Below, in pieces: positions 54,305 through 56,889 of a stretch of 64,000 nt of DNA. The stretch lies in contig NZ_JAIUFY010000012.1 in NCBI RefSeq assembly GCF_020165855.1, positions 1-64,000 on the forward strand, given 5' to 3'. Under the pieces are notes generated by a model. It saw nothing but the letters and a program-made list of their open reading frames with translations, did not search any database and was not told where the DNA came from. The stretch comes from Celeribacter litoreus (GTDB taxonomy: Bacteria > Pseudomonadota > Alphaproteobacteria > Rhodobacterales > Rhodobacteraceae). Position numbers and translations under genes: made by a program. Within the stretch, counting starts at the first letter, position 1; the number at the start of each line of letters is the position of its first letter.

Positions 54305-54462
54305 CTCATTCCCCCTCAAGGTCAAAAGGAACGGCAAGTGGGCTGCACTTAGGGCGATTCAAACCATGGGGCAAGAAAAACATGCGCCTGTCAGAGAGGA
54401 TTTCTGCGACGAAAACGTGATGGCGCGTAAGGGGTGCGCGGCTTGACTTCGTTCTGTGGTGC

Positions 54463-54972
54463 GTGCCCGATGCGCGCGGTTTTGTTGTGAGTTGGATAGC
54501 TGATTTGGAAATAGAATTCGTCCGTTTGACCGAGGTGCCTGCGGGAGACATCCTGAGCCACATGAGCGACCCGCGCGTGGCGGAGCACATGCCGCTTTTG
54601 ACCGAAGCCTGGACCGAAGACACCGTTGCGGCGTTCGTTGCCGCGAAGGAAGCCTGCTGGGCGCGCGACGGGCTCGGACACTGGGCGTTTGTCGTGGATG
54701 GCGCCTATGTCGGCTGGGGCGGGTTTCAGAAGGAGGGCGAAGAGTGGGACTTCGGTCTGGTCCTGCGGCCGGACCGCTTCGGCCTCGGCCTCCGGATCGC
54801 GAAAAAGGCGCTCGCCTTCGCCCGCACAGACCCGCGCATCCCCTATGTCACCTTCCTCCTCCCCCCGTCCCGCCGCCACCTCGGCGCGCTACGCCGCATG
54901 GGGGCGGAGCAGGTGGGCGAGATGATGTATGAGGGCAATCGGTTTTTGAAGTTTCGGTTGGGGACGGAGTGA
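54463..54972 (+). CDS. GNAT-family N-acetyltransferase
   Basis: A protein of up to 169 residues with the acetyltransferase fold: EIEFVRLTEVPAGDIL strand/helix, a GHWAFVVDGAYVGWGGFQ central strand pair, and an acetyl-CoA loop region RPDRFGLGLRIAKKALAFA in place of the classic Q/RxxGxG/A, then the FLLPPSRRHLGALRRMGAE C-terminal helix. This resembles RimJ/RimL-like members. The start is uncertain: GTG at 54463, GTG at 54487 and TTG at 54505 are all in frame and none has a strong ribosome site. The substrate is unknown. Confidence 0.72.
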   Translation: MPDARGFVVSWIADLEIEFVRLTEVPAGDILSHMSDPRVAEHMPLLTEAWTEDTVAAFVAAKEACWARDGLGHWAFVVDGAYVGWGGFQKEGEEWDFGLVLRPDRFGLGLRIAKKALAFARTDPRIPYVTFLLPPSRRHLGALRRMGAEQVGEMMYEGNRFLKFRLGTE

Positions 54973-55127
54973 GGGGTGTTAGGCGAAGGCCTGTTTTGAG
55001 CCCACACCTGCTTTTGTCGAGTGCCCACCAATGATGCCAACACAGCCAGCATCAACAGAATTTCAAAGGATGATATAAATTGGCGGATACCTGATTGGAG
55101 TAGTGATTTTCACACTAATTTTCTCTT

Positions 55128-55338
55128 CTAGGATAAAAAAGAAAGAAGAAGATCAAGCCAATTTGTAATTTCATCGATCAAAAACTTGCTCCCGACCCTT
55201 TTCCCTAACTCTTTCAAATATTTGAGAGCGAGATTCGCCAAGTCGGCTAAGGCCATTTTGTCTGGCGCAGATTGTGTCAATATCGCATCGATTGCTCCGA
55301 GATAGCCACCAATGTCTCTCTTTTGCTCTGGGGTTAGC
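55128..55338 (-). pseudogene. Frameshifted C-terminal remainder of the AT-rich orphan
   Basis: On the minus strand this stretch is open up to a TAG at 55128-55130 and continues the orphan at 55339-55953 in frame only if one copy of the 16-bp tandem repeat at 55342-55373 is removed. The continuation reads on with an ELTPEQKRDIGGYLGAID-like segment and ends in a helical, hydrophobic tail. About 69 residues are thus cut off from the present protein. No independent start or ribosome site was found. Confidence 0.75.
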
Positions 55339-55953
55339 TCATTGTCTTGTTCGATCTTTGTCTTGTTCGATCTTTGCTCTAAGATGAGTGAGGTATGTCA
55401 CATATGGTATCTGAAAGTCTGAAATCCCCAGCTTGTACTCAAATGATGGACCGCCCATAAAAACACTGGGAGGGCGCACAATTCCATCAATTGGGGCCTC
55501 TCCATTGCGGAGTGCTGCAAGCGGCTTACGCGTCCTGTAGGGCAGCCCCTCTCCATCGTAAGCGACTACATCAACTTGAAAATAATCATCTTTAAGACTG
55601 TAGGTCTGCCAAAGTTCTTCAAAAGAGCGAGCAAGAATTTTGAAGCCTGCCGTAGCGCATGTATCCTTGAAGAGTTCCTCTAGGTCTCCATCCTGTCCCG
55701 GAAACTTTCCAACACGTAAATATATTAAGTGGGAACCATTGCTTAGCTTGGTCTTCGGCGTATTCGAAATGTGCAAATTATAAGGAAACAATTCTGGATG
55801 TGTTTCCTTCAATTCATTCATATTACTGGTCTCAAAGTCGAGGGCAGTTTCAACAAAGTAGTCAATATAATCCATTTCAGCAGACCTTTCTCTAAACTGT
55901 GCCCACAGTCCGTATCGATACAGGAAAACTCGACGGTTTGGCCACGCTTCCAT
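55339..55953 (-). CDS. AT-rich orphan protein, truncated by a tandem duplication
   Basis: A protein of about 204 residues that I do not recognise. Composition is more A+T rich than the neighbours, and it lies 75 bases downstream of trpA on the same strand. It reads as a soluble mixed alpha/beta protein with a GFKILARSFEELW segment, a YFQVDVVAYDGEG segment and a PSVFMGGPSFEYK segment. The reading frame now ends (KIEQDKDRTRQ-stop) because of a 16-bp tandem duplication; the ancestral protein would have been about 270 residues. Start options are GTG 55962, ATG 55953 and ATG 55875, the last having AAAGG 9 bases upstream. Confidence 0.55.
   Translation of the reverse strand: MEAWPNRRVFLYRYGLWAQFRERSAEMDYIDYFVETALDFETSNMNELKETHPELFPYNLHISNTPKTKLSNGSHLIYLRVGKFPGQDGDLEELFKDTCATAGFKILARSFEELWQTYSLKDDYFQVDVVAYDGEGLPYRTRKPLAALRNGEAPIDGIVRPPSVFMGGPSFEYKLGISDFQIPYVTYLTHLRAKIEQDKDRTRQ
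55342..55373. repeat. 16-bp perfect tandem duplication
   Basis: TTGTCTTGTTCGATCT occurs twice in direct succession (55342-55357 and 55358-55373), and the first three bases of a third unit follow. Sixteen is not a multiple of three, so it shifts the frame of the minus-strand orphan. Confidence 0.95.
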
Positions 55954-56027
55954 CGCGCGCACTTTTGCAGAGCGTTAGGAAATTAGTCGCATTGTGTCAA
56001 AGGCATAACTCTCTGACGTCCTCTCGC

Positions 56028-56819
56028 TCACGCCCGGTGCGCACCGTCCGCCAGAGATTTCACATAGGCGGCGATCTCTTCGACCGATTTGCCGTTGGCC
56101 ACTTCATTGACGATGGCGGAGCCGACCACGGTGCCATCGGCGACGGCTGCGATCTCTTCGGCTTTCTCGGGGGTGCGGACGCCGAAGCCGACGATGACGG
56201 GTAGGTCGGTCTTGGCTTTGATCCGTGCCACTTCCGGGGCCACGTCCGCGCCGGAGGCGGCGGCTGCGCCGGTGATGCCGGTGATGGAGACATAGTAGAC
56301 AAAGCCGGAGGTGTTTTCCAAAACCTTCGGCAGGCGTTTGTCATCGGTCGTGGGGGTCGCGAGGCGGATGAAGTTCAGGCCCGCTTTCTGCGCCGGAATG
56401 CAAAGCTCTTCGTCTTCTTCCGGCGGCAGGTCCACGATGATCAGGCCGTCGATGCCGGCCTCGACCGCATCCACGAGGAATTTGTCGACGCCGCGCGAAT
56501 AGATCGGGTTGTAGTAGCCCATGAGCACAATCGGCGTGGTGTCGTCGGTCTCGCGGAAGGCTTTGGCGAGGTCGAGGGTCTTTTGCAGGGTCATCCCCTG
56601 ATCGAGCGCTCGCTGGCCGGCGAGCTGGATCGTCGGGCCGTCCGCCATCGGATCGGTGAAGGGCAGGCCCAGTTCGATGATGTCCACACCGGCGGCGGGC
56701 ATTGCCTTGACGATCTCCAGCGATTTCGCCTCATCCGGATCTCCGGCCATGACATAGGCGACGAAGGCCTTTTTGCCTGCGGCTTTCAATTCGGCGAATT
56801 TGGCGTCGATACGGGTCAT
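56028..56819 (-). CDS. trpA: Tryptophan synthase alpha chain
   Basis: Cleaves indole-3-glycerol phosphate to indole, passed by tunnel to TrpB. The 263-residue TIM barrel has the catalytic E49 in [11 protein letters not shown] and D60 in ADGP, the [10 protein letters not shown] segment near 101-110, and the phosphate site [12 protein letters not shown] near 207-218. GAGGAG lies upstream of the ATG at 56819; an in-frame GTG three codons before is less well placed. It is separated from trpF-trpB and followed by the AT-rich orphan. Confidence 0.96.
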
Positions 56820-56889
56820 CAGGTGCACTCCTCGGGAACTACCCTTTGGGAAGTGCCTTAAAACCCGCGCGTGTGCAAGTGCTCAGGCT

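Follow-up and report, generated by a model that had tools for sequence, protein, structure and literature searches.

A 16-bp tandem duplication as the probable cause of truncation of an orphan gene in an AT-rich segment beside trpA in Celeribacter litoreus

On the minus strand of the window (the whole stretch of DNA that was analysed, 64,000 nucleotides), an open reading frame ends directly against an exact 16-bp tandem repeat, and a second frame stays open beyond that end. The locus raises the question of whether the stop is the natural end of the gene or a break made by the duplication and, if a break, whether it could serve as a reversible switch. The best reading, to which a probability of roughly three in four was assigned, was an acquired orphan gene that would have been truncated by a chance slippage duplication. 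A frame-breaking short duplication is an ordinary and well-known kind of mutation. If this reading is right, the locus would add another example of an acquired gene that a short duplication by slippage has broken and that one deletion could repair. The repeat was composed as follows:

55342-55357, no strand assigned: repeat copy A, unit TTGTCTTGTTCGATCT, exact match
55358-55373: repeat copy B, unit TTGTCTTGTTCGATCT, exact match, directly adjoining copy A with 0 bases between
55374-55376: TTG, three further bases that match the start of the unit and extend the exact match at lag 16 to 19 bp

These exact copies agreed with the preliminary description, which had reported the unit twice without interruption at 55342-55373. 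Tandem Repeats Finder placed the repeat at 55342-55376 with a period of 16, 2.2 copies, 100% matches and a score of 70, the top score among 26 rows in the window (runner-up 46). An exact scan for periods of 10-100 showed that it was the sole perfect tandem duplication in the window. The same scan produced 14 rows in 735,082 bases of the other fetched loci, from which L001, L006, L028 and L036 were left out as they overlap the repeat locus. One of these rows (L124) was the repeat locus again, two were a single GTG array and, among the rest, a unit of at least 16 bp was found in L114 only. The 16-bp repeat is a real duplication event, far beyond chance, and is rare with parallels elsewhere. Phase-variable (contingency) loci feature a long hypermutable repeat array; such an array is absent at this locus, where 2.2 copies of a 16-bp unit are present.

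The unit length of 16 is not divisible by 3, and the two exact adjacent copies lie inside a coding frame. Two frames meet at the repeat:

55339-55962, minus strand: present ORF of the mechanical listing, GTG start at 55962, 207 aa, TGA at 55341-55339
55128-55340, minus strand: putatively severed C-terminal frame (the tail), 70 open codons past the present stop, then TAG at 55130-55128

The TGA at 55341-55339 directly abuts the repeat, in agreement with the earlier placement of the minus-strand stop at 55339. In the present frame the repeat region gives LRAKIEQDKDRTRQ, followed by TGA; read 16 bp out of register, it gives KIEQDNELTPEQ onward from within the repeat. Because KIEQD is read at the repeat in either frame, no stop falls between them when one unit is discounted; the junction was judged from this overlap of the two separate frames. 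The joined frame had been described as free of stops, with about 69 further codons to the TAG at 55128-55130 and 270 residues in all from 55953. The absence of stops was confirmed and both lengths were right within one codon, with 70 further codons found and 269 codons obtained by arithmetic. The possibility that the tail frame is a gene of its own, downstream of the present ORF, was considered and dropped, as the mechanical ORF list held no ORF of at least 60 aa there with an ATG, GTG or TTG start of its own.

The beginning of the gene was reconsidered as well. By eye, the motif AGAAAGG was seen nine bases upstream of an ATG at 55875. The 29 codons before this ATG (55876-55962) had a coding score of -2.1 bits and a GC content of 0.54, higher than that of the gene body (0.44). 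On this motif and score, ATG 55875 appears a likelier start than ATG 55953 or GTG 55962, and the start at 55953 used in the preliminary description was probably too early. The resulting gene is:

55339-55875, minus strand: likelier present gene, ATG at 55875, 178 aa, TGA end, based on the motif seen by eye and the coding score of the body

Annotations that begin at 55962 or 55953 probably overextend the gene, and neither boundary of ORF 55962-55339 as mechanically listed should be relied on. By arithmetic, the unbroken product from ATG 55875 would have 243 codons, against 178 aa now, and the loss of the tail seems to take about a quarter of the gene from its end. The N-terminal 178 residues gave a poor structure model (pLDDT 54), which had no match among solved folds at E ≤ 0.001; the best, at E 0.035, is meaningless at that pLDDT.

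Several measures bear on whether the tail is coding. Within 55131-55341 the tail frame was the single stop-free frame among the three minus frames. It also had the best amino-acid log-odds of all six frames at +5.3 bits, compared with -3.2 to -11.2 for the other five, under a scoring model trained on the GC-rich genes of the window. The codon-position GC of the tail (0.50/0.34/0.46) was similar to that of the body (0.54/0.37/0.42), and AlphaFold2, given the 81-residue tail alone as a single sequence without alignment, predicted three helices with a mean pLDDT of 69. Judged by these sequence measures, the tail frame looks coding. The openness of the frame is by itself weak evidence. Dinucleotide shuffles of the tail remained open in 590 of 20,000 cases, and 70 or more open codons were found in the equivalent shifted frame of 11 of the 55 long ORFs in the window, the repeat-bearing one included. 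The other ten such ORFs lie in regions with a GC of 0.53-0.64, a range in which open frames occur often; at the repeat-bearing ORF the GC is 0.43. Together with the finding of no relative with the tail attached, the open shuffles and the open shifted frames speak for the present stop being the natural end of the gene, in which case the tail would be a chance open frame and the duplication would have done no more than swap the last residues. However, shuffles that were open and also scored at least as high as the tail numbered just 15 of 20,000, the codon-position GC follows that of the body and the model of the tail is helical. A natural end at the present stop was considered unlikely.

Homologues of the N-terminal piece were searched for in genomes at five taxonomic levels and those of the tail in genomes of the genus, with E-values computed per one genome, overlapping samples and genome counts that include the own genome; the 207-aa form was used for family, genus and class and the 178-aa form for order and phylum. 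The N-terminal piece matched its own genome only, both in 295 family genomes at E ≤ 0.001 and in 398 phylum genomes at E ≤ 0.01. Two other matches (E about 0.005) were obtained in 385 class genomes and one, with an E-value of 0.0022 and three internal stops, in 390 order genomes. In 20 genus genomes searched at E ≤ 10, the N-terminal piece gave matches in three other genomes, the strongest at 0.026, and at a further site of the own genome (0.113); the tail matched six other genomes (best 0.0585). G439 (E 0.0053), G300 and G306 were among these weak matches. Four matches were rejected after inspection: G260 (E 0.026), where the frame resembles another protein, presumably of a WecG/TagA-like type; G560 (E 0.0055), an unrelated frame that we take to be cytochrome c1-like; G298 (E 0.0585, a tail match), an unrelated and presumably acyltransferase-like frame; and G890 (E 0.0022, three stops inside), where the match is not in frame and spans the end of another gene, presumably dihydroorotase-like. 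Judged from their frames, the weak matches that were opened are unrelated proteins or out-of-frame DNA.

Neither piece had a significant match in Pfam, PHROGs, PADLOC or NCBIfam (one PHROGs line for the tail had E 0.18). Nothing significant was found for both pieces against phages and plasmids by tblastn, or for 55000-56027 against plasmids by distant blastn. Scans of viral contigs with both pieces and of genome contigs with the N-terminal piece, which reach near relatives only, gave 19, 4 and 38 stretches that fitted the peptide pattern, and 0 were confirmed as homologues. Among PDB sequences, two fragilysin chains were listed at E 0.25 and 0.76. This likeness was treated as chance: the match starts before the likely start codon, and HExxH, the motif looked for in weighing it, was not seen in the translation. 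On these searches the gene appears to be an orphan within the collections covered, and the orphan status given in the preliminary description holds to that extent. No relative with one repeat copy and a full-length frame was found in the same collections.

The repeat-bearing gene lies in a stretch that differs from its surroundings in base composition:

54463-54972, plus strand: left neighbour, GNAT acetyltransferase, Pfam Acetyltransf_3
54973-56027, no strand: AT-rich stretch of 1,055 bp between the GNAT stop and the trpA stop, carrying the repeat-bearing gene only
56028-56828, minus strand: right neighbour, trpA, 93% identity with trpA of Celeribacter sp. HF31

The GC content was 0.43-0.46 over 55000-55999 vs about 0.53-0.65 in flanking intervals (about 0.6 before the drop). 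The right neighbour was recognised as what we take to be trpA, the tryptophan synthase alpha chain, and the HF31 copy (93%) was the best among the 80 matches listed. In 4 of 19 congeners (L011, L012, L013 and L016) the GNAT gene and trpA were separated by 21-53 bp according to protein match ends and by 23-29 bp according to DNA match ends, compared with 1,055 bp here. The 21-bp junction recurred in the HF31 locus (L044); L044 and L011 probably represent one genome. Another 11 of the 19 congener loci had a neighbouring decarboxylase gene and no GNAT match beside trpA; the gap measured 92-163 bp in six of them and 987-1252 bp in the other five. The remaining 4 had neither protein match on that side. 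Among these 4, L021 extends only 919 bp on the relevant side, and the trpA match of L025 (43%) is probably not the same gene. In L010, also one of the 4, 50 bp at the locus edge, about 1.4 kb from trpA, matched the 3' end of GNAT at the DNA level, which perhaps marks a separate insertion into that junction. The interval between the decarboxylase gene and trpA (54338-56027; L007-L025) varies in gene content among congeners.

ORFan genes occur in AT-rich horizontally acquired insertions. The present segment resembles them in being a single gene with a GC well below that of its surroundings and in being absent where relatives keep the neighbours adjacent; the empty site is present in 4 of 19 congeners, the other 15 being arranged otherwise. 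Unlike them, it was found without a mobile-element gene or a clear integration signature. No target-site duplication or exact terminal repeat of at least 9 bp was found at the segment ends, and no second copy of the segment was found in its own genome. The fold of 54960-55130 as a recombination site was no better than shuffles (z 0.19). The two segment ends each enclose one arm of an imperfect 11-nt inverted pair (55114-55124 / 55977-55987, 91% complementary), but six inverted pairs, this one included, were listed over 1.2 kb. An integron cassette or transposon was provisionally dropped as an explanation on the lack of terminal repeats, the z of 0.19 for the fold and the inverted pair being one of six. 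Most likely, judging from the congener junctions, the segment was gained here, at a site of variable gene content, rather than lost elsewhere.

An acquired gene truncated by slippage would have arisen in the following way. A gene unlike its surroundings in base composition would have entered a Celeribacter-like lineage by insertion between GNAT and trpA; against this stands that a comparable junction was found in only 4 of 19 congeners. Later, tandem duplication would have affected a 16-bp stretch toward its 3' end, the probable mechanism being slippage during replication between 3-bp TTG matches, which are near chance level; the single-copy ancestor would have carried TTG on both sides of a 13-bp stretch. 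The frame would then shift at the repeat because 16 bp do not make up whole codons, and TGA would be reached after six more codons. From ATG 55875 the product would now have 178 aa instead of 243, missing the C-terminal part with its three predicted helices, and function would presumably be lost. Deletion of one 16-bp copy would bring the two parts back into one frame and the mutation is therefore potentially reversible, with no selected switch needed. The preliminary description had named the duplication as the simplest cause of truncation. This is the best-supported explanation, given a repeat beyond chance, a unit that is not a multiple of three and a coding-like tail; the ancestral length within it was inferred, because the searches brought up no relative whose frame is intact over the full length.

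The other explanations were weighed against the same observations. The assembly is a 16-contig draft, and an assembly or sequencing error could have added the second copy to a locus that has one in the living cell. However, a 35-bp stretch fits well inside an ordinary sequencing read and should be resolved by an assembler, which makes such an error very unlikely. Programmed +1 frameshifting at the repeat, by which both frames would be joined in translation, is barely credible: a +1 step just before the TGA would enter the tail frame, but the codons AGA CAA TGA permit no re-pairing like that of the RF2 frameshift site, and the exact duplication accounts for the frames unaided. The earlier idea that slippage at the repeat could give an on/off C terminus found no support beyond the repeat itself, with two copies in one genome and no variant allele seen. 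The repeat architecture would permit such a switch, in which gain or loss of one 16-bp copy would turn the C-terminal part off or on, and the pneumococcal precedents of a tandem duplication in wchA and of the reversion expected for an insertion of 9 bp or less (PMC4022640) point the same way. Nevertheless, only two copies and a single allele in one genome were seen, the AT-rich insert has no second genomic copy, no known family, surface or other, was recognised in either piece and a duplication in one genome requires no selection for switching. A reversible switch is accordingly improbable, and slimmer still is the chance of a selected two-copy switch that would add or remove a three-helix C-terminal module in a free-living marine bacterium. 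If the switch were nevertheless real, tandem-duplication phase variation would reach a free-living marine alphaproteobacterium. The genus Celeribacter is described as marine in the part of PMC8874975 drawn on.

Two known systems help to place the duplication. In the portion of PMC4022640 consulted, a tandem duplication in the pneumococcal capsule gene wchA is cited as a cause of a lost capsule, reversion of an insertion of 9 bp or less is expected at about 1e-5 at most, and Waite et al. 2001 and 2003 are cited with titles that name phase variation (type 3 locus; cap8E/wchA and tts). As in those capsule genes, a short tandem duplication inside an ORF would break the gene here and the loss of one copy would restore it. 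In contrast to them, for which phase variation stands in the cited titles, the present case consists of one allele in one genome and an uncharacterised gene. The pneumococcal case would make reversal plausible, not a selected switch. Microhomology-mediated tandem duplication is described for ssp1 of fission yeast in the excerpt of PMC13207564 used. The likeness to that description lies in two tandem copies from a segment bounded by short matches, with a premature stop. The differences are that the flanking match here is a 3-bp TTG near chance, that the host is a bacterium, not a fungus, and that reversal is a prediction here.

Finally, two loci recorded as Nocardioides marinus (L049) and Enemella evansiae (L120), both presumably actinobacteria, carried trpA genes 83% and 77% identical to the trpA of this window, and these records may be mislabelled or contaminated.
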